DNA from: Deltaproteobacteria bacterium
GTDB taxonomy: Bacteria > Desulfobacterota > Deferrimicrobia > Deferrimicrobiales > Deferrimicrobiaceae
Direction: 5' to 3'
NCBI GenBank assembly: GCA_021824125.1
Contig: JAKALO010000008.1
Span: 1-40,760, forward strand
Length of the DNA: 40,760 bases
In this document: piece by piece, positions 18,892 through 34,316 of the stretch
Position numbering within the stretch: position 1 is the first letter of the stretch
Layout of the letters: the number at the start of each line of letters is the position of its first letter
Notes under the pieces: model-generated
Database searches by the model: none
What the model saw: the letters and a program-made list of their open reading frames with translations, nothing else
What the model was told of the DNA's origin: nothing
Position numbers and translations under genes: made by a program

Positions 18892-21243
18892 TTGGTCGCG
18901 GTGCTTTTAGGTTCGACATTTCTCCTGTTTCTGGCGGCGTTTCTGTCGATCCGCTTCGTCCGGTTGCAACGCCTGGGGCGTCCCTGGCTCCTGGTGTCCC
19001 TCGCGCTCCTCCTGATGGGGGGGCTCCGCCTTTTCACCCTGTTCGCCGGCATCGGCGAAACCGGTACCTGGATGCTCGACCCCACCCTTGAGACGATCAC
19101 GCTGGGGATTTCCGTTTTGCTTGCATCCGGCTTCGCGCTGACGGAGAGATGGTTCCTCCTTAAAGAGAGGCTCGAGGGGCGGTTCGGCCTCATAACCGAG
19201 GTGGACCGCCAGCTGATCGGCGTTCTGGAGGAGGAACGGATCCTTTCGATCGTGTGCGAGGTGCTTTCGCGTCGGAAAGGGTATCGCCTCGCGTGGATAG
19301 CCGCCGGGGAACCGGACGGCTCGGTCCGTGTCGTGAAGCACGCCGGCGAGGGGGACGGGTTCCCGGCGGGCGCCGGGATCCGGTGGGACGATTCACCCGG
19401 GGGGCGGGGTCCTACCGGCATCGCGCTCCGCACGGGGGTTCCCTGCGTGGTGAACCGTGTGGGGGAGGACCCTCGGATGGCCCCCTGGGGAAAGGTCCTT
19501 TCGGGGATCGGAATCCGGAGCGCCGCGTCCGTGCGCATCGAGCCCAACGGGCAGCATCCTTTCGCGCTGACCGTTTACGCCGACAGCCGGTCCGAGTTCG
19601 ACCGCGTCGAAATGCAGTCGATCTCCGCCCTGGCCCACAGGATCGGGGTCGCCATCCAGAGCGCGAGGCGCCACGTGTTCTTCGTCTGCGCGAAAGCGGC
19701 GTACGACGACCTTCTGAAGAACCAGCGGGACGGCGTGATCCTCGTGCGCGGGGAGAAAATCGTGCGGGCCAACCCAGCCGCCGCGGCGATGCTGGGATTC
19801 CCCGAAACGGAGAACCTCTTCGGGCGTGACCCCGCGATGATCCTCGAGAATCCGGAACGGGATCCCATGCTGAGGGAGTTCCTGAGGTCCGGAGGCGACG
19901 CGGGCGGAGGGCACCTTTCCGAGGCCGGAATCGTTCGCAGTGACGGGTCGGCCTTCACCGGGGAGATCTCCATCAACTGGCTTCCCAGGGAAAGCGGGAA
20001 GGCGATGTGGACGCCCAGGCTCACGGGCCCGCTCGGGATGATCATCCTCAGGGACATCTCGGAGAAGACGCGCCTGGAAAGGCAGATCATCGAAATGCAG
20101 AAGATGGAGGCGGTGGGCACCCTCGCCGGCGGTATAGCTCACGATTTCAACAACATACTGACCGGGATCCTCGGCAACCTCGATCTTGCGCAGAATGCAA
20201 TCCCGCCGGCCTCCCCTGCATGGATGCCGGTCAAGGAATCGATCCGGGCCTCGGAGCGGGCCGCCCACATGGTCCGGCAGCTCCTCGATTTTTCCAGGCG
20301 CTCGCCGTCGACGCGCAAGTCTCTCGATCTCCGTAAGGTGACCCGGGAGGTCGCGGACCTGTTCTCGCAGACCATCGACAAGCGGATCGGCGTGGAGACC
20401 GTTTCCGACGACGAAATATGGCTCGCTTCGGCCGACCCGAACCAGATGCACCAGGTGGTGATGAACCTGTGCGTGAACGCCAGGGACGCGATAATGGAGC
20501 GCCTTGAGGGGAGATCTGTCCCCGGCATCCCGGAGGGCGGTTTCCGGATCCGGCTGATCGTCCGGAACGCCAGCGTCGGGGAGGATTATTGCCGGAAGTA
20601 CCCGTACGCCCGGCGGGGGGAATTCGTCGTCGTGTCTATCTCCGATAACGGGGCGGGGATGGACGAGGCGACGCGGCAGAGGATCTTCGAGCCGTTCTTT
20701 ACCACGAAAAAACTGGGGAGGGGGACCGGGCTGGGTTTGTCAACCGTGTACGGGATCATAAAGCAGCACGAGGGCTGGATCAACCTGGAAAGCCGCCCCG
20801 GTGAGGGGACGACGTTTCGCACGTACCTGCCGAGGGCGGACATGGGGGCGGAGGAGGAGTCGCAGGGACCCGAGGCAACCCGTCCGAAACCGGGGAAAGA
20901 GACGATCCTCCTGGTGGACGACGAGGAGATTATCAGGTCGGTCTGCCAGCAGATCCTCGAACTCCAGGGCTATTCCGTCATAACCGCGTCCGACGGGCAG
21001 GAGGCGATCGACCTCTACCTGCGGGAACGCGAGAGGATCGACATCGTCATCCTGGACATGACGATGCCCTCCATGTCCGGGGCCGATGTCCTGACGCGGA
21101 TCCGCACCCTCAACCCGCACGCCAGGGTCATACTCTCGAGCGGCTACCAGACCGGGGAGCACCACCTCGCCTCGGCGTTCCTCCCGAAGCCCTACCGGGC
21201 CGAGGACCTCGCGCGCATCGTGCGGGAAGTCCTCGACCAATAA
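18892..21243 (+). CDS. Membrane hybrid kinase TM-GAF-PAS-HisKA-HATPase-REC, 783 aa
   Basis: TTG 18892 is preceded by GGAGGGG. Three hydrophobic segments (about 4-21, 31-53, 66-86) anchor the protein with almost no periplasmic part. A GAF domain (about 100-260), PAS (about 270-395), HisKA with LAGGIAHDFNNILTG (H417), an ATPase domain (GRGTGLGLSTVYGIIKQHEG) and receiver (D722 in VILDMTMPSMSG) follow. The signal is probably intracellular or membrane-borne and sensed by GAF/PAS. It lies 73 bases after the previous hybrid kinase and ends 5 bases before the convergent DUF166 gene. The two kinases share subtype, but no DNA-binding regulator is nearby to receive the phosphate. Confidence 0.9.
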   Translation: MVAVLLGSTFLLFLAAFLSIRFVRLQRLGRPWLLVSLALLLMGGLRLFTLFAGIGETGTWMLDPTLETITLGISVLLASGFALTERWFLLKERLEGRFGLITEVDRQLIGVLEEERILSIVCEVLSRRKGYRLAWIAAGEPDGSVRVVKHAGEGDGFPAGAGIRWDDSPGGRGPTGIALRTGVPCVVNRVGEDPRMAPWGKVLSGIGIRSAASVRIEPNGQHPFALTVYADSRSEFDRVEMQSISALAHRIGVAIQSARRHVFFVCAKAAYDDLLKNQRDGVILVRGEKIVRANPAAAAMLGFPETENLFGRDPAMILENPERDPMLREFLRSGGDAGGGHLSEAGIVRSDGSAFTGEISINWLPRESGKAMWTPRLTGPLGMIILRDISEKTRLERQIIEMQKMEAVGTLAGGIAHDFNNILTGILGNLDLAQNAIPPASPAWMPVKESIRASERAAHMVRQLLDFSRRSPSTRKSLDLRKVTREVADLFSQTIDKRIGVETVSDDEIWLASADPNQMHQVVMNLCVNARDAIMERLEGRSVPGIPEGGFRIRLIVRNASVGEDYCRKYPYARRGEFVVVSISDNGAGMDEATRQRIFEPFFTTKKLGRGTGLGLSTVYGIIKQHEGWINLESRPGEGTTFRTYLPRADMGAEEESQGPEATRPKPGKETILLVDDEEIIRSVCQQILELQGYSVITASDGQEAIDLYLRERERIDIVILDMTMPSMSGADVLTRIRTLNPHARVILSSGYQTGEHHLASAFLPKPYRAEDLARIVREVLDQ

Positions 21244-21248
21244 ACCCG

Positions 21249-21926
21249 TTACTCCTTCAATGCCGACTTGAGCGCGGCCCGCACGATGTAACCCGAAAGG
21301 TGCATGATCGTGTCCTGGAGGTCGGGGTCGATTTCCATCGAGGCGAGGCAGGGGTGATGGTGGTGCCGCAGCGCCCCGGTGTCGGGCGCCTCGGTCACCC
21401 TGGCCCCGGCGAGGATGGAGGCGACGAACTTCGCCGAGCCGCACGGCGCGTCACGCAAAACCTCGACTGACGCCACGCGGTCTCCGTCCCGCACGACGCG
21501 GAACTTCGGGCGACCGAACTTGGCCGCGAATTCGGAAAGCAGCCGGTCCGGCCCGCCGTCGAACCCGCAGAAAGGGCGGGGGAAGGCGTGCGCGACGCCC
21601 ATCGCCGCGAGACGTTTCCGGACCTGGTTCTCCAGCCCCGTCGGGCAGGCGGAGCGGTCGTCCACGGGGGCAAGGACCGCCCGGGCGCCGCACGCCTTGG
21701 CGATGTCGGGGATGAGGTCGGCGGCGCCGGGCGTCTCGTGAAGGGATACGAGGAGGTCCGCCGCGGGCAGGGAGGCGGTTAGGAATTCCCCCGGGTCGTC
21801 GATTACCATCGGCAGGCGCGCCGGGAGCCTGAGGACATCCACCGCCCATTCCACCGGGCCGTTCGAGCGGACGTTCTCCGCGACCCTTTCCCCGTATCTT
21901 CCCTGGACGGAGAACAGGATTTTCAC
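21249..21926 (-). CDS. DUF166 protein at the end of the acs operon, 225 aa
   Basis: Recognised as DUF166 (Pfam PF02593), a family best known from methanogens and anaerobes, from its blocks PRPFCGF, SVEVLRDAPCGSAKFVA and HHHHPCLASMEIDPDLQDT. Conserved-looking metal-ligand candidates are C120, C162, H188-H191 and C193; C79 and C94 also occur. Function is unknown; an old database label of thymidylate synthase should not be trusted. The GTG start overlaps the cooC stop by four bases (GTGA, 21923-21926), so it is made together with the acetyl-CoA synthase proteins. A role in CODH/ACS cofactor handling or maturation is an inference from this position and the Cys/His pattern. Confidence 0.88.
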   Translation of the reverse strand: MKILFSVQGRYGERVAENVRSNGPVEWAVDVLRLPARLPMVIDDPGEFLTASLPAADLLVSLHETPGAADLIPDIAKACGARAVLAPVDDRSACPTGLENQVRKRLAAMGVAHAFPRPFCGFDGGPDRLLSEFAAKFGRPKFRVVRDGDRVASVEVLRDAPCGSAKFVASILAGARVTEAPDTGALRHHHHPCLASMEIDPDLQDTIMHLSGYIVRAALKSALKE

Positions 21927-22675
21927 GACGGCCCCACGGAAATCAGGATCCGCGCCGCCGCTTCCGCCGCGGTCGCCGCGGGCGAACCGGCCGGCAGGTC
22001 CAGGAAGGAGCGGCCCGAGAGCTCCAACCCTGGCAGGGAAGGGTCGTGGGGGATCTCAGCAAGGAGGGGAGGCGACGACGGGGGCGGACAACCGATTCCG
22101 CCCTGCGCGGAATACGGGCGGTTCAGGAGCAGCCAGGTTCTGCCGACCGGAAGGGAAAGCTGTCCGGCCAGCTCCCGGATAGACTGCGCGGCCGACAGTC
22201 CCCTTGGCGAGGGGTCGGCGACCAGGACCAGGTGGTCGATCCGGCGGAGGTTGCGCCTGGACAGGTGCTCCATCCCTGCTTCGTTGTCAACGACAACGGC
22301 CGAATAATTCCCGGAGAGACGCAGGAGGGATCGGCGCAGGAGGTTGTTCACGTAGCAGTAGCACCCGGGCCCTTCACCGCGGCCCATCGTGACCAGGTCG
22401 ACGTCCTTGCCTTCCGCGACGCGCCGCTGGACCATCGCCTCCAGGAGCGTTTCCCGCGGGGCGGACTTTTCCCGCTCCTCCAGGAGTTCCTCACGAAGCG
22501 ATCCCAGCGGAGTGGGCATCGGGAATCCCAGGAGAAGGTGTAAATTGGAATTCGGGTCGGCGTCAACGGCGAGGACCGGCCGAACGCCCCCCGCGACGAG
22601 GGCGCGCGCAAGGAGGGCCGCGCAGGTGGTCTTGCCGACCCCTCCCTTACCGGCGACGGCGATCATACGCGTCAT
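21923..22675 (-). CDS. cooC: CooC/AcsF-type nickel-insertion ATPase, 250 aa
   Basis: A MinD/SIMIBI-class ATPase with deviant Walker A GKGGVGKTT (residues 9-17), DADPNSNLH, and the CooC hallmark CxC metal site C105-x-C107 in GEGPGCYCYVNN, which binds nickel at the dimer interface. Such proteins drive nickel insertion into CO dehydrogenase (CooC) or acetyl-CoA synthase (AcsF). Its place within an acs operon lacking a CODH gene favours acetyl-CoA synthase as client, but the two subtypes cannot be separated by eye. ATG 22675 overlaps the upstream mesB-like stop (ATGA). The C-terminal half is short of further domains and of normal length. Confidence 0.92.
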   Translation of the reverse strand: MTRMIAVAGKGGVGKTTCAALLARALVAGGVRPVLAVDADPNSNLHLLLGFPMPTPLGSLREELLEEREKSAPRETLLEAMVQRRVAEGKDVDLVTMGRGEGPGCYCYVNNLLRRSLLRLSGNYSAVVVDNEAGMEHLSRRNLRRIDHLVLVADPSPRGLSAAQSIRELAGQLSLPVGRTWLLLNRPYSAQGGIGCPPPSSPPLLAEIPHDPSLPGLELSGRSFLDLPAGSPAATAAEAAARILISVGPS

Positions 22676-23712
22676 CGGGAGACCTCGTGGCGGACGCGGA
22701 GCAGGGTGGAAAGCCTTTCCGTCAGCAGGACCGCCCGTTCCGCCTCCTCCTCGGAGAGCGTGCCCAGGCCGCAGGCCGGGGTGATGAAAGCCGCGCGGGC
22801 GACCGCCCCGCGCGGGATTCCGCGCGCCTCGAATTTTACCAGGATGTCCTCCATCCGGCCGGCCAGCGATTCGGGCGTCTCGCGGCGGATCGCCTCGGGG
22901 GAGGTGGGCACGATGCCGAAGGCCAGCTTCCCTCCGCGCCCCAGGAACCTTTTCACCTCTTCGGGGTAGAGGAGGAGGGAGTCGGCGTACTCGTAGGCGT
23001 CGAAGGAGAGGTAGCGCACGCGGCTCTCGAGGACCAGGCCCCAGTCGGTGTTCGCGCAGCAGTGTATGCCGCACAGCGCGCCCGGAAGGCCGTCGAAGAT
23101 CTCGTCGAGGGAGCCGATGACATCCTCGCGGCGTAGGGAGAGGATGGCGGAACCGACGGAGGCGAGGTACGGCTCGTCCAGCACGAGGATGACGTGGGGG
23201 GAGATGCGCGACAGCCGATCCACCTGCCATTGCGCGACCCGCAGGAGGTGTTTAACCAGGATGTCCCGCCCCACGGGGTCGTAGAAGAGCGGCCTCTTCT
23301 CCCGGTCGGTTACCATCAGCCCGAAGGAGACCGGGCCGGTGATCTGCCCCTTCACGGCGAGGCAGGGCGCCGGGTCGGCCGCGAGGAGTCGGTACAGTCC
23401 GGCCGCGCGTTCGGCGGGGATGGCGAAGCTGGAGGGGTCCTCCGAGAGGAACCGCTCGTAGAAGGCCTCCGACTCGGCGGCGGCCTTCTCCCCTGATTCC
23501 ACGAAAAGCTTTTCCCCCTCGATGGCCGCTCCCGGGAGCCCGGCCGCGTACTGGATATACATGGTTTCAAGAAAGTCCCTGCGGGGCAGCTGCGGCCAGT
23601 ACGGGACGTCGATGAAGCGTGACACCACGACGCGCACCGCCTTCTCCGTGTCGGTGTGCGGGAGGCTCCCGACTCCCGTGGCAAGAAACGGCGGGAGGTT
23701 GGCCCTGGTCAC
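22672..23712 (-). CDS. mesB: Core methionine synthase (MesB-like), MetE C-terminal fold, 346 aa
   Basis: Resembles only the catalytic C-terminal half of cobalamin-independent methionine synthase: ATGVGSLPH near the N-terminus, LDEPYL, and the zinc site H217-x-C219 (IHCCANTDW), E241 and C314 (ITPACGLGTL). H217, C219 and E241 have the same spacing as E. coli MetE H641, C643 and E665. The folate-binding N-terminal half is absent. Folate-free core synthases of the MesB family occur in bacteria with the Wood-Ljungdahl pathway and are predicted to take the methyl group from the corrinoid iron-sulfur protein. Location between the CFeSP activator and cooC fits this exactly. The GTG start overlaps the previous stop (GTGA). 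The symbol is provisional; a uroporphyrinogen-decarboxylase-type methyltransferase is the alternative. Confidence 0.8.
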   Translation of the reverse strand: MTRANLPPFLATGVGSLPHTDTEKAVRVVVSRFIDVPYWPQLPRRDFLETMYIQYAAGLPGAAIEGEKLFVESGEKAAAESEAFYERFLSEDPSSFAIPAERAAGLYRLLAADPAPCLAVKGQITGPVSFGLMVTDREKRPLFYDPVGRDILVKHLLRVAQWQVDRLSRISPHVILVLDEPYLASVGSAILSLRREDVIGSLDEIFDGLPGALCGIHCCANTDWGLVLESRVRYLSFDAYEYADSLLLYPEEVKRFLGRGGKLAFGIVPTSPEAIRRETPESLAGRMEDILVKFEARGIPRGAVARAAFITPACGLGTLSEEEAERAVLLTERLSTLLRVRHEVSR

Positions 23713-25376
23713 GCCGACTCCGGGGAAAGGCAGCGGCGGTAGGTCTCCTCGTCCGTGTGGGGGATGAACAGGGCGCGCTGGTAGAATTCCATGAAGTCCG
23801 GATCGCTCGACAGGTCGTGGTGGGAGGTCGCGGGCGCGAGCGCCGCCGCCTCCTCCCAGCGCTTCCTGTTGCGGAGCGCGCCTATCGCCCCGGCCAGAGA
23901 GGCGTTGCCCAGGGGGATGAACTTCCTCAACGGAAAGGGGGGGAACAGCCCGAGCGTCAGCGCGGACCGCAGGTCGAGGAAGTTTCCGAACCCGCCCGCG
24001 ATGAAGACCCGCTCCACGTCCGCGCGGTAGAGTCCCACCGCGGCGAGCAGGGCGTCGGCCGCGGCGCACAGCGCCGCCTTTGTCCGGAGCACGCTCTTGA
24101 GGTCCGGCGCCGCGAGGACGATCTCCGCGCCGGCAGCGCTCTCGTCCGCCCGCGCGACGAGGTATGCCTTTCCACGCCCGGTATCGCGAAAGGGGGCGCC
24201 GGCGCGCGGGACGAACCGCCCGGCGCGGTCGACGAGCCCGGCGCGGAAGAGCTCCGCGCACAGGTCCAGGATCCCCGACCCGCAGACCCCGGCGGGTTTT
24301 CCGCCGCCGATGACGGTCCACCCGGCCGCGAGGGTTTCGCGGTCGATCCGGACCGAATCGATCGCTCCGGCGCAGGCTCGCATCCCGCACGCGACCTCGC
24401 CGCCCTCGAAAGCCGGGCCGGCCGAGGAGGAGCAGGCGATCCGGAACTCGCGGTTGCCCAGCGCGACCTCGCCGTTGGTCCCCACGTCGAACAGGAGCGA
24501 AACGGCCTCTTCCCGGTGCATGCCGGAGGCCAGAATCCCGGCCACTATGTCCCCGCCCACGAATCCCCCGATGGAGGGGAAGATCCGCCACCGCGCTGAT
24601 GGGGCGGAAGCGATGCCGAGTTCCTTCCCGGACTTCGCCGGGTATTCCTTCAGCACAGGCCGGTGCGGGGGACGGCGCAACGGCGCGGGGGAGAGGCCGT
24701 AGAGGATGTGGGAGATGACGGTGTTCCCCGCGGCCGTGACCTCGACGATCTCCCCGGCCACCGGGGAAGACTCGATCAGGCCGGAGATCACCTTATCGAC
24801 GCCTTGCCGGAGAAGGCGGCGCAGGAGGGTAAAGCCGTCCGGGCTCTCCTCCCCGAAAACGATCCGCGAGATCAGGTCCTCCCCGAATACCATCTGCGGG
24901 TTGTCGGAGGACGCCCGCGCGAGCACGGTCCCGTCCCGAAGGTCGATGAGGGCGCCGGCGAGGGTGCTGGTGCCCAGGTCGAGGGCAACGCCTAGGGGGC
25001 TTCCTTTCCCGGGGACCAGGTGCAGCGGGACGAAGGGCTCGTCTTCCGCCGTTTCCCTTCCCTCGATGTACGCGGAGAGCCGGGCGGGGCGGCTCCCGGG
25101 GAGGACGGTGACCGTCACTTTCCCTGAAACGGGGACGCAGCGGCAGGCAAGGCGGACGCCGGCGCGCAGCTCTTCCTGTGAAAGCGCTCCGGGATCGTCG
25201 CCGCCCTTCGTGTCCCCGGCGACGGTTACCCTGCACTTCCCGCAACGGCCTTCCCCCCCGCAGGGGGAGAGGATCGGGATGCCGGCACGCACCGCGTGCG
25301 CGAGGATCGTCTCTCCGGCCTGGAGGGGGGCGCTCGCGTCCTCCGGCAGGAACCGGAGGCAGGGAGCGTCAGCCAT
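23709..25376 (-). CDS. acsV: Reductive activator of the corrinoid iron-sulfur protein (RACo/AcsV), 555 aa
   Basis: Uses ATP to drive reduction of inactive Co(II) CFeSP back to Co(I). An N-terminal plant-type [2Fe-2S] ferredoxin domain has C39-x5-C45-x2-C48 and C78. It is followed by a linker and an ASKHA-type ATPase domain (DUF4445) with ALDLGTSTLAGALIDL, AAGNTVISHILYG, LLFDVGTNGEVALG, AGPAFEGGEVACGMRA and VFIAGGFGNFLDL. Length is close to that of known RACo (about 630 aa) but shorter. It follows acsC, its client's large subunit, with an 8-base overlap, and precedes mesB. Similar proteins also activate methyltransferase corrinoid proteins, but the acs context settles the client. Confidence 0.92.
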   Translation of the reverse strand: MADAPCLRFLPEDASAPLQAGETILAHAVRAGIPILSPCGGEGRCGKCRVTVAGDTKGGDDPGALSQEELRAGVRLACRCVPVSGKVTVTVLPGSRPARLSAYIEGRETAEDEPFVPLHLVPGKGSPLGVALDLGTSTLAGALIDLRDGTVLARASSDNPQMVFGEDLISRIVFGEESPDGFTLLRRLLRQGVDKVISGLIESSPVAGEIVEVTAAGNTVISHILYGLSPAPLRRPPHRPVLKEYPAKSGKELGIASAPSARWRIFPSIGGFVGGDIVAGILASGMHREEAVSLLFDVGTNGEVALGNREFRIACSSSAGPAFEGGEVACGMRACAGAIDSVRIDRETLAAGWTVIGGGKPAGVCGSGILDLCAELFRAGLVDRAGRFVPRAGAPFRDTGRGKAYLVARADESAAGAEIVLAAPDLKSVLRTKAALCAAADALLAAVGLYRADVERVFIAGGFGNFLDLRSALTLGLFPPFPLRKFIPLGNASLAGAIGALRNRKRWEEAAALAPATSHHDLSSDPDFMEFYQRALFIPHTDEETYRRCLSPESA

Positions 25377-26721
25377 TGGCGGGGAGGAACGCGGCCGGCG
25401 GGAGCCGACGGAGATAGGAAGGTAGCGCGGAGGACTCCTGCGGGCCCACGAGGACGCGCCACCGGGAAAGCTCCTCGATCCTGCCCGAGAGGCGCGCCAC
25501 CATACCCGGCAGTATGAGGGTCCTGTGCTCCACCTGCCCCCCGATGCCGCCGTCCAAAAGGATTTTCGCGACGCTCTCCGCGGTGAACTTCCCCGCGGCC
25601 CACGCCGTGAGCACCGACATTCCGTCGCACTCCGCGATCAGGAGGTGCGCGGGGGTACGGGACGCCTCGATGTCGCTGCGGACCGTGAAGTAGGTCAGGG
25701 AGAAATTCGTCGTTATCAGGACCGGCGAGGAGGGAGTGGCCTTCCCTATCGCGTAGATTCCGGGCTCCACCTGGATCGGCCGCTGCGGGTCGGTGAATAT
25801 GTTCTGGCGCAGGGTAAGAATCGGGAGGAGTTCGGCCGGGTCGGCGGTGTCGAGCACGACGAGAGAGGCGTATTTCGGGACGAGGAGGCATGCCGCGGCG
25901 AACGGATTCGGGAACCCCCCGCCGAGGTCGAAGGCGGTGGGGTACGCGACCTCCCTGGCGCGGTGCGCGATCGCGAGGGTGCGGATGCATATCGAGTCAG
26001 CCACGGCCCGGCCCGCGTCTTCCGGCATTGGATCGGCGACGATCTCCTTCGCTCCCGCCGCCCGCGCCTTGGCCAGCGCGGCTTCCAGGGCATCGAGCCC
26101 CCTGGCCCTCGCGACGAGGGGCAGCCCCGCGGAGGCGGCAAGTTTCGCGCCGTCCTCGAGCTCTTCAGGCGGGGGGCAGAGCAGCGGGCGGGAGGCGCCG
26201 ACCTCTTTCACGGCCGCGGCGAGGGCGGAAGCCGGGCCCTGCAGGAGGAGCGGCTTGCCCGCCCCGGAAAGCGCGGCGGCGGCGACTCTCGCGAACCGGG
26301 CGGGGTCCGACGAGTCGCAGCGCACCGCCGCCATGTCGACGGAGATCGTCTGGCCTACGCGCTCGAAGGAGAGCGCCGTGATCCTCCGGAGCCGTTCCAC
26401 GAGCGCTTCCTCCCCGAGGGTGTCGGACACCGACGCCGCGATCGCGGTTGGGTGGTGGAAGGTCTTCTCGTGGCGGAACAGAACCACCTCGTCACCCAGG
26501 ACGACCGCTCCATCGCCCGTCCCGACCGTGACCCTCGGCAGGGGGGGGGCGGAAGCGGCGCCGAGCCTCTCCTTCGCCTCGGAGGACGCGGGAGGGCACT
26601 TCTCGATGCCGGCCTTCCCCGCGGCCATCTGCATCGCGAACGCGAGGCAGGTGGGAAGCCCGCACTCCTTGCAGTTGGTCTTCGGAAGCAGCTTGTAGAT
26701 CTCCAGGGCTGTCAGCGCCAC
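25369..26721 (-). CDS. acsC: Corrinoid iron-sulfur protein large (gamma) subunit, 450 aa
   Basis: Carries the cobamide and a [4Fe-4S] cluster and shuttles the methyl group from methyl-tetrahydrofolate to acetyl-CoA synthase. The N-terminal cluster motif is C17-x2-C20-x4-C25-x16-C42 (TNCKECGLPTC), as in Moorella AcsC. A TIM barrel (about 75-320) and C-terminal corrinoid-binding domain (about 325-450, with AECDGMSVLTAWAAGKF) follow. Start GTG 26721 overlaps acsD by 10 bases. A nine-C run on the coding strand (26541-26549) encodes part of the proline-rich linker between the cluster domain and the barrel. Confidence 0.96.
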   Translation of the reverse strand: MALTALEIYKLLPKTNCKECGLPTCLAFAMQMAAGKAGIEKCPPASSEAKERLGAASAPPLPRVTVGTGDGAVVLGDEVVLFRHEKTFHHPTAIAASVSDTLGEEALVERLRRITALSFERVGQTISVDMAAVRCDSSDPARFARVAAAALSGAGKPLLLQGPASALAAAVKEVGASRPLLCPPPEELEDGAKLAASAGLPLVARARGLDALEAALAKARAAGAKEIVADPMPEDAGRAVADSICIRTLAIAHRAREVAYPTAFDLGGGFPNPFAAACLLVPKYASLVVLDTADPAELLPILTLRQNIFTDPQRPIQVEPGIYAIGKATPSSPVLITTNFSLTYFTVRSDIEASRTPAHLLIAECDGMSVLTAWAAGKFTAESVAKILLDGGIGGQVEHRTLILPGMVARLSGRIEELSRWRVLVGPQESSALPSYLRRLPPAAFLPANG

Positions 26722-27632
26722 GACGTCCCCCGTAACAGCGCCGCGTTACCCGGGTGGCGGCAGACCAGCAGGTCCGCCCCGGCCGCGAGGCACGCCCAGC
26801 CGGTCGCCTCTTCCCAGCGCGGGCCGCGAACGTCCGGGTCCCCCCAGGAGGGTTCGGACGCGTCGACGGCTTCACGCGCCTTCCACGCGTCCCCGAGGTG
26901 GCACAGGACGGGGCGGGCGAGCATCGCGTCGCCCGAGAGCCCTGCCAGCCGGATGCGCTCAACGATGGAGTAGGTGTATTCCAGGCCGTAGCCGAGCCCT
27001 CCCGTCAGTGGGTCGATCAGGATCCTTTCGGGGGGGACGCCGATGTCCGACAGGAGGAGGTTGATCTGCTTCGCCATGTTGATGTCGATGGGGGACCAGG
27101 AGACGACCCCGTGCCCGTACGCCAGCGCGGCGCCTCCGACGAGCCGGTAATTCTTCTCGTCCGCGTAGGAGAGGAAGACGGGGCGGGGCGCCGCCTCGGC
27201 CACGGCGGGGAACAGCTTCGCGTCGATCTCCTCGTCACCGCACCCGCCCACTATGACGGGGCAGCGGACCGCGGCGAGGACGTCCCTGGCCAATTTCGCG
27301 CCCATGGCGACCGTCTGCGAGCCGTTGTCGGGATGGCAGCCGGAGAGGGAGAGGAAGATGAAACTCGCCCCCCATTCATCCTCGCATGCCCGGGCCAGCG
27401 AGACGGGGTCCTTTTCCCTGCCCCCCAACGCGTGCGCCAGAGAAGGGGGGATCTCGCCGCTTCCCGTCCCGACCTCCATGCCGACCGCGACGGGGTTGTG
27501 CTTCTCACCTTCCGGCGCGAGGGGGAGGGCGTTCTGGCCTCCCACGATGACGGGCGTTCCCCCCTCCGCCGCCGGTAGGGTCACTTCCAGTACGCGTCCG
27601 GGAAACGCCTGTTTCGGGAACGCGACGGTCAT
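26712..27632 (-). CDS. acsD: Corrinoid iron-sulfur protein small (beta) subunit, 306 aa
   Basis: The TIM-barrel partner of AcsC; the heterodimer holds the cobamide between the two subunits. Recognised by VIVGGQNALPL, the GMEVGTGSGEIP region, SGCHPDNGSQ, CPVIVGGCGDEEIDAKLFP and IDPLTGGLGYGLEYTYS. The length is normal for AcsD (about 310 aa). ATG 27632 overlaps the acsB stop (ATGA, 27629-27632); upstream reading frame is acsB shadow. Acts in the cytoplasm with AcsB, AcsC and the methyltransferase AcsE, which is not in this window. Confidence 0.95.
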   Translation of the reverse strand: MTVAFPKQAFPGRVLEVTLPAAEGGTPVIVGGQNALPLAPEGEKHNPVAVGMEVGTGSGEIPPSLAHALGGREKDPVSLARACEDEWGASFIFLSLSGCHPDNGSQTVAMGAKLARDVLAAVRCPVIVGGCGDEEIDAKLFPAVAEAAPRPVFLSYADEKNYRLVGGAALAYGHGVVSWSPIDINMAKQINLLLSDIGVPPERILIDPLTGGLGYGLEYTYSIVERIRLAGLSGDAMLARPVLCHLGDAWKAREAVDASEPSWGDPDVRGPRWEEATGWACLAAGADLLVCRHPGNAALLRGTSWR

Positions 27633-29749
27633 AAAAGGGATGGCATCGACAGCGCCGGGTGCCCCACCTTCACGAGATGCTCGAGCAGCTTGTCGGGGGT
27701 TACAGCTATCGTCTCGTCCGCGATCTTGTCGATAAGGTCCGGCATCCCGATCTCGGCCGCCCTTGCCCGGAGGTCCGCCCCCAGCTGTTCCTTCATCTCC
27801 TTCGTCATCCACACGAGGCGCGGGAGCCCCCCCTCGGCTCCCAGGAACTTCCTGCTGAGAAGGTAGTGCTTCCCCACGCCCATGAAGCCGGGGGTCTGGG
27901 CTCCGCCGCCGACCGAGCCCGCGAGCGTAGAGAAACCCATCCCGCACGGCGTTTCCGCGCCGGCGAACTCCCGGTTGACCGCCATGACCCCGTTGGCCTC
28001 GGGGATCACCGCGAGGATGCATTCGAAACAACCGCAGGAGGTCATGGGAGCGTCCATGATCGAGTACAGGTTGAAGCCGGGCACCGTGTTGCGGGAGTGC
28101 TCCCGGACGAACGCGTTCACCCCGTCCCACGCTCCCTTGACGGAATTCAGCACGGCGCCCTTTTTCACGGGCTGGTTCGGCCCCGTGGGGGTTATCTCGT
28201 AGCCCGCTTTTCCGTCGAGCCAGTTTATGGCGCCGCACAGGCCGAGCCGCTCCGGCGCGACTATGCAGACGTGGTTGGGAGCGAACGACTGGCAGAGCGT
28301 GCAGGAGTAGAACTCCTCCACGGCGTCGTCGGTCAGGGTCCGCGCCCGCGCGTCGCGCTCGGCGTAGATGGTCTTCGCGTGCGCGAGCCCCGCAAGGACG
28401 TCCTCCTCGCGGGTGTGGATCGTCACGGACACCTTGTCGACGATGTTCTCGAAGTCCGCGTGGATCTTGGCGTAGAGCATCATCCCCAGGTCGGACAGCG
28501 TGAACCCCCTTGAAACGGCCTCGTCGGACACGCGGATCCAGGTGGTGTCGCGCTGGGCCACGTGCATCGTGCCTTCCCCGTAGTTGACGATGCGGTGGAT
28601 CCGCCGTTCCAGGACCGACTCGAAGTCCTTCTGCATCCGGTTCCCGGCGACCGTTACGACGATGCCCAGTGGGAGCGTCCCACCTTTCGGGATCCCGGCG
28701 ATGTCGGGCCCCACGACCGTGATCTCCTTGTCGCGCACTTCCGTTAGAGGGGCGCTCGTCACCAGTTCGTACGCAGTCGCGCGGCCGCCGCCGAACTCCG
28801 CGTGGGTGTCGGATTTCCTTATACGCTCCCCCTCGTACGCGGGGCCGAACGCGATGGGGATCGGGACCTTGACGATCTTGACCTTGATTCCGCGCGCCTC
28901 CATCCCCGACCGGACCATTTCCTCTCCGGCGGCGCGACGGAAAAGGAGGCCGGGGATTTCCGGAAGTTCCTGGTCCGTGAAGACGGGGAAACCTGCCTTC
29001 ATCGCGCCGGCCGCCACGGCAAGAGCGATGTCGTCCAGGGGACCCAGCGCGCAGACGAAAGCCTTGACCCGGTTGGCCAGGTAGCCGTACATCGCGTCCG
29101 CCTGGCCGCGGCCCAGGCCCCCGAAGGTGAGGCCCGCCCGCACCGCGAAGTTGACGGCGTGGATGACCGCGGGAAGCGGTCCGAGGGGGAAGGTCCTGAA
29201 GTCGTCCCCGAGCTTGACCCCCGCTTTCTCCGCCTGGCCGACCAGCCCCCCCGCGAGAAAGACGAGAAGCCCGATCTCCTGGAACTGCCGGATCATGGCG
29301 GCGGCCGCCGCGGGATCGTCGGCTTTGCCGACCGCCACCGCTACGCCCGGCACCGAGCCGTCGACCATGAAGATGCCCAGCTTGCGCAGGATCGAATCGG
29401 GGATGAACCCCGTGGAAGGTGGCGGGAAAGGGTTGCCGCCCTTGTGGGAAAGGGCTCCCAGCACCTCGGCGGCCAGAAGCGTCGCCGCCCCCGCGTCGAG
29501 CGCGTTGGCGAGCGTGGGCGGTTTCCGGATGAGCCCTTCCGCCAGCGATAGGACCGGCTCCGCGTCGGCGAGGGCACGGACCTTCATGTCCGTCAGGCCG
29601 AAAACGACCGGAAGCTCGTACGCGGTTTCGGGGTAGCCGAGCGGTGCGTCACCGCCGCGCCGCCCCAGGTTGTAGTCCAGGGACGACCGCGCCAGGGAGA
29701 GCACGCTTCCAGCCCCCCGCATGCATGAGTCGAAAAAGTGTCCCGTCAT
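27629..29749 (-). CDS. acsB: Acetyl-CoA synthase, bacterial type, 706 aa
   Basis: Joins CO, a CFeSP-bound methyl group and CoA into acetyl-CoA (or cleaves it in reverse) at the A-cluster. Ligands for the [4Fe-4S] part are C483, C486, C495 and C505, and the distal nickel is held by C572-G-C574 (TSCGCFEC). The spacings are identical to Moorella C506, C509, C518, C528, C595 and C597. Full length with the N-terminal domain 1 (residues 1-310), which docks onto CODH and is missing from archaeal CdhC, so this is the bacterial form. ATG 29749 has only a weak AAAGAG site; the stop of an exported-protein gene lies 9 bases upstream, so it may be part of a longer transcript. Confidence 0.97.
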   Translation of the reverse strand: MTGHFFDSCMRGAGSVLSLARSSLDYNLGRRGGDAPLGYPETAYELPVVFGLTDMKVRALADAEPVLSLAEGLIRKPPTLANALDAGAATLLAAEVLGALSHKGGNPFPPPSTGFIPDSILRKLGIFMVDGSVPGVAVAVGKADDPAAAAAMIRQFQEIGLLVFLAGGLVGQAEKAGVKLGDDFRTFPLGPLPAVIHAVNFAVRAGLTFGGLGRGQADAMYGYLANRVKAFVCALGPLDDIALAVAAGAMKAGFPVFTDQELPEIPGLLFRRAAGEEMVRSGMEARGIKVKIVKVPIPIAFGPAYEGERIRKSDTHAEFGGGRATAYELVTSAPLTEVRDKEITVVGPDIAGIPKGGTLPLGIVVTVAGNRMQKDFESVLERRIHRIVNYGEGTMHVAQRDTTWIRVSDEAVSRGFTLSDLGMMLYAKIHADFENIVDKVSVTIHTREEDVLAGLAHAKTIYAERDARARTLTDDAVEEFYSCTLCQSFAPNHVCIVAPERLGLCGAINWLDGKAGYEITPTGPNQPVKKGAVLNSVKGAWDGVNAFVREHSRNTVPGFNLYSIMDAPMTSCGCFECILAVIPEANGVMAVNREFAGAETPCGMGFSTLAGSVGGGAQTPGFMGVGKHYLLSRKFLGAEGGLPRLVWMTKEMKEQLGADLRARAAEIGMPDLIDKIADETIAVTPDKLLEHLVKVGHPALSMPSLL

Positions 29750-32643: not shown

Positions 32644-33777
32644 ATGAGTAATACGATGCATGCGACGGGCGCGGGGAGCGCGGGCAATGACGTTTTGCTG
32701 AAGGCGGGCGCCGGCAGGAGGATTCTCGTTGTCGACGACGAGGAGTTCATCCGCGCGCTAGTACGGGAACGACTTGAAATAGCGGGGTATTCCGTGGAGG
32801 AGGCCTGCAACGGCAAGGACGCCTTGTCCAGGCTATCCGCCGGCAAATTCCAGGTTCTCCTCACGGACATCCGGATGCCGGAGATGGACGGGATCGCGTT
32901 TCTCCGGGAGGCGACCAGGTTATATTCGGATGTCGCCGGCATCGTGATGTCGGCCCACGCCGAGCTCGACACCGCCGTTTCCGCCTTGAAGATCGGCGCG
33001 TGCGACTACATCACCAAGCCGTTCAACTTCGACGTCCTGCTCATCACGATCGAAAACGCGATCAGGAAAAAGGCCATCGAAAGGGAGCTCGAGGACTACC
33101 GGCAGAACCTGGAGTTGAAGGTCAAGGAGCAGACGGACCTCATCAACCAGGTGTACGTCCGCTCGATCGACGCGCTGATCAAGGCGCTGGAGGCAAAGGA
33201 TTACTACACACGCGGCCATTCACAGCGGGTGACGATGTACTCCGTGGCGATAGGGAAGGCGATGGGCCTTCCCGGGGAGCGGGTCGACCTTCTCAGGCAG
33301 GCCTCGGTCCTGCACGACCTTGGGAAGATCGGCGTCCGGGAGGAGATCCTCAACAAGCCGGGACGGCTGACGGAAGAGGAGTTCAAGGAGATAACCCTGC
33401 ACCCCGGGGTGGCCGTCAACATCCTCGAACCGATCCCGTACTTCAAGCCCCTGCTTCCGGCGATCCTGCACCACCACGAGCGGTTCGACGGCAAGGGCTA
33501 CCCGGACCGGCTCGCGGGCGAGGACATCCCCCTGGAATCCCGCATCATGGCGATCGCGGACACCTTCGACGCCATGACCTCCACCCGCGCATACCGAAAG
33601 GCGCTTTCGCTGGAGGCCGCCAACGCGGAGATCGTCAAGTGTTCGGGGACGCAGTTCGACCCGGACATCGTGCCCGTCTTCATGGCGGTTCAGGGGAGGA
33701 TCGAAATCCTGGTCGAGATGACCGACCTGATCATGCCGGAAGGGAACGTGGACGCGATCTTCGCCCACCCGGCCTGA
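32644..33777 (+). CDS. Response regulator with HD-GYP c-di-GMP phosphodiesterase, 377 aa
   Basis: A receiver domain (about 25-145, D75 in LLTDIRMPEMDG, switch and K125 in ITKPF) is joined by a short coiled coil (about 145-170) to an HD-GYP domain with HDLGKIG (H224, D225), HHHERFDGKGYPDRLAG (GYP at 285-287) and ADTFDAMTS. All metal-binding residues are intact, so active hydrolysis of cyclic-di-GMP is expected, lowering this second messenger and favouring motility over biofilm. No dedicated kinase is adjacent; the many kinases in the window are possible partners. Its stop overlaps the AMMECR1 start by one base (TGATG). Confidence 0.94.
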   Translation: MSNTMHATGAGSAGNDVLLKAGAGRRILVVDDEEFIRALVRERLEIAGYSVEEACNGKDALSRLSAGKFQVLLTDIRMPEMDGIAFLREATRLYSDVAGIVMSAHAELDTAVSALKIGACDYITKPFNFDVLLITIENAIRKKAIERELEDYRQNLELKVKEQTDLINQVYVRSIDALIKALEAKDYYTRGHSQRVTMYSVAIGKAMGLPGERVDLLRQASVLHDLGKIGVREEILNKPGRLTEEEFKEITLHPGVAVNILEPIPYFKPLLPAILHHHERFDGKGYPDRLAGEDIPLESRIMAIADTFDAMTSTRAYRKALSLEAANAEIVKCSGTQFDPDIVPVFMAVQGRIEILVEMTDLIMPEGNVDAIFAHPA

Positions 33778-34316
33778 TGCCCTACCTTGCGGAAGGGGAA
33801 AGGAAGGAGCTGCTGGCGATAGCCCGCCGCGCGGCGGTCTCCTGGGTCAGGAAAGGGAAGGTCCCGCAGGAAAACCCTCCTCCCGGAAATCTTGTCGCGC
33901 CCGGCGCGGCGTTCGTGACCCTCACCCGCAAGGGGCGGCTTCGCGGGTGCATCGGGTACACCGAGGCGTCGGTCTCCCTCTTCAAGACGGTCCAGGAGTG
34001 CGCCGTCGCCGCGGCCACGGAGGACCCCCGGTTCCCCCCCGTTGGGCCTGCGGAGGTTGACGCCATCCGGATCGAGATCTCGGTCCTGACCCCGCTGGCG
34101 CAGATCAGGCCCGTGGAGGTGGAAGTCGGCGTCCACGGCCTCCTGGTCAGGAAAGGCGGCCGGCGGGGCCTGCTGTTGCCGCAGGTGGCCGTCGAGCACG
34201 GCTGGGACCGCGAGGCGTTTCTTTCCGCGGTTTGCGAGAAGGCGGGTCTCCCGCGGGACGCGTGGCGGAGCGGCGCGGAACTGTATTCCTTTACCGCCGA
34301 GGTGTTCGGGGAGTAG
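33777..34316 (+). CDS. AMMECR1-domain protein (AmmeMemoRadiSam protein A), 179 aa
   Basis: An AMMECR1 family protein, known by the block LRGCIGYTE (C58) with the preceding FVTLTRKGRLRG and later EDPRFPPVGPAEV, IRIEISVLTPL and LLLPQVAVEHGWDREAFL. The biochemical role is unresolved. In many genomes it occurs with a MEMO protein and a radical SAM enzyme; neither is beside it here. ATG 33777 overlaps the stop of the HD-GYP gene by one base. The 3' end overlaps the convergent acyl-CoA-synthetase gene by 26 bases. Confidence 0.92.
   Translation: MPYLAEGERKELLAIARRAAVSWVRKGKVPQENPPPGNLVAPGAAFVTLTRKGRLRGCIGYTEASVSLFKTVQECAVAAATEDPRFPPVGPAEVDAIRIEISVLTPLAQIRPVEVEVGVHGLLVRKGGRRGLLLPQVAVEHGWDREAFLSAVCEKAGLPRDAWRSGAELYSFTAEVFGE

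Follow-up and report, generated by a model that had tools for sequence, protein, structure and literature searches.

A 40,760-nucleotide stretch of a deltaproteobacterial contig, referred to here as the window, carries on its minus strand an acetyl-CoA synthase (ACS) operon with the gene order acsB-acsD-acsC-RACo-mesB-cooC-DUF166, in which DUF166 is the last gene on that strand. The features of the locus are:

18892..21243, plus strand: convergent hybrid histidine kinase, which bounds the operon and is not thought to be part of it
21249..21926, minus strand: DUF166 gene (PF02593) with a GTG start; Pfam match, and alignment with invariant C120, C162 and C193 and near-invariant H209
21923..22675, minus strand: cooC-like Ni-insertion ATPase; GKGGVGKTT P-loop, CYC at 105-107, best PDB match 3kje
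22672..23712, minus strand: MesB-like core methionine synthase, 346 aa; HCC at 217 followed by a later Asp and Cys
23709..25376, minus strand: RACo/AcsV-like corrinoid activation protein; PF14574 and PF17651, NF040756 below its cut-off
25369..26721, minus strand: acsC/cdhE, corrinoid Fe-S protein gamma subunit; NF003195, 498 bits (cut-off 306)
26712..27632, minus strand: acsD/cdhD, corrinoid Fe-S protein delta subunit; NF003376, 282.6 bits (cut-off 280)
27629..29749, minus strand: acsB/cdhC, acetyl-CoA synthase; NF040764, 932 bits (cut-off 800), and PF03598

The mesB, cooC and DUF166 genes are each joined to the preceding gene by a 4-base overlap in which the start lies inside the stop (GTGA or ATGA): the MesB-like start overlaps the RACo stop, and the GTG of DUF166 overlaps the TGA of cooC as GTGA. 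Six bases lie between the end of the histidine kinase gene (21243, plus strand) and the DUF166 stop. The initial annotation had located the gene correctly at 21249-21926, leaving its strand (minus) unstated, and had described it as the last gene of the acs operon with a start within the cooC stop, both of which are seen in the sequence. The start given for acsD is approximate, as ORF 26712-28238 is open further upstream and the NF003376 match falls at ORF residues 203-503.

The cooC product combines the deviant Walker A and CxC motifs of CooC with similarity to a solved CooC, its best PDB match being the Carboxydothermus hydrogenoformans protein (3kje, E=1.6e-17). The MesB-like protein has H-C-D-C residues, read from its sequence, as putative Zn ligands, and shares its operon with acsC and acsD, MesB being expected in genomes with AcsC/AcsD; its HCC, Asp and Cys fit the MesB Zn site described in PMC7857596. 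This protein gave no Pfam or NCBIfam match at E<=1e-3 and showed weak Meth_synt_2 similarity (0.067), and its gene would escape automatic annotation. No CODH gene lies beside acsB in the window; a CODH of the CooS type (TIGR01702, 626 bits), accompanied by its own CooC, is encoded on another contig of the genome. Elsewhere in the window, positions 33000-34316 (plus strand) encode a protein with a C-terminal AMMECR1 domain (PF01871).

The DUF166 gene runs from 21926 to 21249 and its translation from the GTG start is a 225-aa protein. Residues 7-224 match PF02593 at E=2e-48 (165.3 bits against a cut-off of 24.4), covering model positions 4-220/221, so that the match stands above the gathering cut-off over the full domain and upholds the family first assigned. 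The gene is an ordinary member of the known family DUF166 (COG1810), which carries no assigned function: all invariant residues are present, no structural difference from the family was found, and this is the sole PF02593 match in its genome (a 2.6 Mb draft, completeness 98.6%). Among the control genomes, that of M. acetivorans also matches the family. The closest named relative is DfsP (NF041372, DUF166 family (seleno)protein), which belongs to the same sequence family and shares C120, C162, C193 and H209. The window protein scores 67.8 bits against that model, below its curated cut-off of 200, and differs in having no selenocysteine (Sec), a longer middle region and Phe119 in place of the Sec or Cys that directly precedes C120 in DfsP; it is also linked to acs genes, whereas the DfsP-type loci sampled here are not. 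Inspection of the window protein revealed no P-loop and no CxxC motif, and it is not His-rich.

AlphaFold2, run with an alignment of 128 sequences, returned a confident fold (pLDDT 96, pTM 0.91). A Foldseek search of the PDB with this model gave no match at E<=1e-3, so no function could be transferred from the fold. PDB sequence searches with the single protein and with the 128-row profile gave chance matches only; those to 6s42 and to affibodies were dismissed because they rest on HHHH tags. By sequence, profile and Foldseek at E<=1e-3, the PDB thus held no similarity between DUF166 and known Fe-S carriers.

Conservation was read from an alignment of 128 diverse non-redundant DUF166 members, the window protein included. 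Only four columns are invariant, C120, P140, C162 and C193, so that the family has the three or more conserved thiolates expected of an Fe-S carrier. Part of the sample was found with search peptides that contain C162 and C193 and is biased to that extent; the columns are equally invariant among the members for which the Pfam model was the only means of detection (L031-L070, L246-L285). The initial annotation had singled out clusters at C120, C162 and H188-H191/C193, and the residues do stand at those positions, but the conservation it implied holds for the cysteines (128/128) and not for the histidine run: H188 is kept in 98 of the 128 proteins, H189 in 94, H190 in 62 and H191 in 18, position 191 being mostly Tyr (97/128). 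The conserved histidine is H209, overlooked at first and kept in 127/128.

The members fall into two subfamilies, a longer type I that holds the window protein and a shorter type II that includes DfsP. Position 119 is Phe or Leu, rarely another residue, in type I and Sec or Cys in type II. In 11 type II genes (L043, L045-L047, L051-L054, L056, L060 and L064) a single in-frame TGA, always directly before C120, is read as selenocysteine; the other type II members have CC. Twenty sequences, nearly all archaeal long forms, have an extra N-terminal four-Cys cluster. This insertion, for example FCxSCGxxCxxCR, was observed in the long paralogue of archaeal members (L246-L285) and in L039.

Gene neighbourhoods were compared across 40 own-phylum loci and 40 archaeal and Chloroflexi loci, both found with the Pfam model, and the best 80 of 174 loci found in a genome collection with conserved peptides, a set biased to the query. 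Of 128 non-redundant loci, 32 lie inside ACS clusters and 5 more adjoin CooC only. On a maximum-likelihood tree the ACS/CooC label requires at least 15 changes, and the link has therefore been kept or re-made many times. Type I genes occur in three settings. The first is the ACS cluster, seen in Deltaproteobacteria, Chloroflexi, Actinomycetota, Acetothermia, NPL-UPA2, Bacillota and ANME-1, where DUF166 frequently adjoins CooC or sits between CdhA and CdhB. The second, found in Chloroflexi and without an ACS neighbour, groups DUF166 with genes for DUF438-hemerythrin-PAS, CRP, ODP-flavodoxin and methyltransferase proteins. The third is an smsC-smsB-DUF166 operon in one deltaproteobacterial family (L031, L032, L033, L034 and L072), where DUF166 is the third gene of a minimal Fe-S scaffold operon with gaps of 7-12 bases. 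The C-terminal cysteines of SmsC in these operons fit the three residues shown to bind the [4Fe-4S] cluster in SmsC of M. jannaschii (PMC12192291). A cysteine desulfurase gene lies near DUF166 in five Chloroflexi loci (L114, L120, L127, L132 and L076); some 'SufC' labels in archaeal neighbourhoods resemble other ABC transporters and were left out of the count. The contexts that lack ACS genes, with their scaffold, desulfurase and hemerythrin/oxidative-stress neighbours, point to Fe-S handling in general. Type II copies lie far from ACS genes. Two side observations were made: two pairs of Chloroflexi loci (L118/L135 and L100/L139) represent genomes with two paralogues, one in the ACS cluster and one beside a hemerythrin-DUF438 cluster, and in nine Methanosarcina-like loci (L252, L254, L256, L258, L267, L269, L271, L273 and L284) a short DUF166 gene lies beside genes named by sequence as dTMP-kinase-like and MfnB-like.

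Encoding with ACS, CooC or both thus spans lineages, and pairs of CooC and DUF166 genes, many of them overlapping, are found repeatedly in archaea as well as in several lineages of bacteria. Each of the seven loci of the window's clade has a 4-base overlap, as does archaeal L263, and in archaeal L260 and L266 the overlap is 11 and 20 bases; gaps of 32-36 bases separate the two genes in L115, L136 and L148, and one of 82 bases in ANME-1 L081.

The initial annotation would have been undercut by a DUF166 distribution independent of CODH/ACS genes, and Fisher tests in three phylum samples (p 7e-5 to 2e-25) show that the two are not independent. Within the window's own phylum, 50 of 247 genomes have DUF166 above cut-off and 45 of these 50 encode CdhC/AcsB (p 7e-5, or 3e-6 with weak CdhC hits dropped, uncorrected for shared ancestry and anaerobic life). 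The phylum of a Chloroflexi record (G282) has ACS in 7/7 DUF166 genomes against a base rate of 38/251 (p 1e-6, or 6e-5 without the centre genome and one below-cut-off match, uncorrected for kinship and anaerobiosis), and that of a Methanophagales record (G309) in 107/109 against 136/197 (p 2e-25, uncorrected for kinship and anaerobic lifestyle). In a set of 48 genomes whose type I locus for the most part lies away from ACS clusters, CdhC is encoded elsewhere in 41, and the other seven, which may be incomplete, show none.

The association is one-way. DUF166 is missing from most ACS-encoding genomes of the window's phylum and of Chloroflexi, with 111-123 CdhC genomes in the own-phylum sample having none, so it is not present wherever ACS is. 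In the window's family (f1) it occurs in 11 of 24 genomes, and a close relative (G179) has an intact acsB-acsD-acsC-RACo-mesB-cooC operon with no DUF166. Because of this operon and of the many ACS genomes that do without the gene, DUF166 is not an essential maturase.

Two genomes separate the partners of CODH/ACS. G226 (a single contig; L042) and G249 (L208) have DUF166 and an ACS operon and gave no Prismane match, and since no Prismane-family protein was found they have no detectable CODH. ACS operons without CODH also occur in Dehalococcoides. This arrangement suggests that in G226 and G249 ACS splits acetyl-CoA for methyl groups. On the strength of the same genomes the CODH C-cluster was rejected as the main client of DUF166, and because in addition the CODH of the window genome is encoded separately with its own CooC, the CooC-DUF166 pair found here goes with ACS. 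The first proposal, an accessory factor of CODH/ACS, is supported in its ACS half, through co-occurrence, ACS operons, CooC adjacency and conserved Cys/His residues, and not in its CODH half, as no CODH is detectable in G226.

The gene order and co-occurrence of DUF166 suggest a part in carrying or installing the metal clusters of anaerobes. Coupling to CooC, retention of three Cys and one His, persistence with ACS where CODH is lacking and the SmsCB context together are most simply explained by the handling of an Fe-S cluster or Ni-ready precursor. We tentatively favour, at somewhat below an even chance and from sequence evidence, the reading that the window protein is a soluble thiol-based carrier or maturation factor of ACS for an Fe-S cluster (or Ni-Fe-S precursor), paired with CooC. 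C120, C162 and C193, aided by H209, would be its binding site for an Fe-S cluster or for a precursor into which Ni is inserted later; it would hold this cluster and might pass it to apo-ACS, with the A-cluster protein AcsB as the putative client, in step with the Ni-inserting ATPase CooC to which it is translationally coupled. The wider family may use the same chemistry to deliver Fe-S clusters in general, for instance those built on the SmsC-SmsB scaffold. As a helper whose gene lies next to that of a Ni-Fe-S enzyme of the CODH/ACS system, DUF166 would share its role with CooC/AcsF, CooT and CooJ; it has no sequence relation to them, having no P-loop and being unlike the His-rich CooJ (PMC6006190). 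Its likeness to the A-type carriers IscA, SufA and ErpA consists of three invariant Cys and, in one lineage, linkage to a SUF-type scaffold, whereas no sequence or significant fold match joins it to these or to any solved structure.

A somewhat unlikely alternative is that DUF166 is a general anaerobic Fe-S carrier or repair protein that takes [4Fe-4S] clusters from SmsCB or SUF-like scaffolds to many clients, ACS being one client and not a dedicated partner because it is rich in labile clusters. The smsC-smsB-DUF166 operon, the nearby cysteine desulfurase genes, the hemerythrin-DUF438-PAS, CRP and ODP neighbours, the remoteness of type II copies from ACS genes and the occurrence of 2-3 copies in archaeal genomes would all fit such a protein, and the carrier of the SMS system has been reported as unknown (PMC12192291). 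However, ACS is nearly always encoded in the DUF166 genomes of three phyla, and in the window's branch DUF166 is coupled to CooC, both of which go beyond what a general carrier needs. In a combined version, for which we see a rather small chance, DUF166 would fill the vacant place of [4Fe-4S] carrier in the ancestral SMS (SmsC-SmsB) system, its CooC-coupled branch being dedicated to cluster delivery to ACS.

Nickel offers another route. AcsF inserts Ni into ACS. CooC-type proteins insert Ni into CODH, and CooT and CooJ, encoded beside CooC in CODH operons, bind Ni (PMC6006190). If DUF166 were a metallochaperone for Ni that supplied CooC/AcsF or the A-cluster, in the manner of CooT or CooJ, this would account for the adjacency and overlap with CooC and for the invariant Cys and near-invariant H209, but such a role is improbable here, as the smsCB and cysteine desulfurase contexts, the selenoproteins and the archaeal four-Cys cluster fit Fe-S better.

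A redox enzyme or a simple metal-binding site would be equally compatible with invariant thiols. A thiol/selenol redox enzyme, in which the type II Sec/Cys-Cys pair at 119-120 would reduce or repair oxidised clusters or thiols, draws on the Sec found at one position in 11 type II members, the CC of the others and the oxidative/nitrosative-stress-type neighbours. Yet the pair is not conserved, since position 119 in type I, the window protein included, is Phe or Leu with few exceptions, and the three invariant Cys lie far apart in a window protein that has no CxxC, making this reading very unlikely.

The corrinoid role also raised at first, widened to a protein that would assist MesB and the corrinoid Fe-S protein in methyl transfer or corrinoid handling, is hardly probable and ranks below the others: beyond mesB standing directly upstream of cooC in the window and present in 11/11 DUF166 genomes of the family, nothing specific speaks for it, most DUF166-holding ACS clusters elsewhere have no adjoining mesB, and in G179 MesB is present and DUF166 absent.

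Methanogens and acetyl-CoA-pathway bacteria carry DUF166, in some cases as a selenoprotein. The open literature, with subscription papers outside the search, names it only in tables or lists; a paper on archaea-distinctive proteins (PMC1852104) reportedly gives it once, under COG1810. Two reviews use DUF166 as a selenoprotein family name (PMC9312934, PMC13188914), and no DUF family appears in the main text of a study from 2026 on the genomic context of CODH (PMC13056359). Functional links of DUF166 to ACS, CooC and SmsCB thus appear to be unreported in the literature searched, and the new part is the functional placement, which would add another type of accessory factor to CooC, CooT and CooJ. 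It bears on two unsolved questions: the assembly of the A-cluster of ACS and, as left open in PMC12192291, how a cluster leaves SmsCB when no carrier is known. Evidence from gene order and conservation gives DUF166 a concrete, testable role, with the residues to mutate named. If the favoured ACS-directed role is correct, DUF166 would aid the expression of active ACS in foreign hosts, and under the combined reading with the SMS system it would join the most ancient Fe-S machinery known to the most ancient enzyme of carbon fixation.
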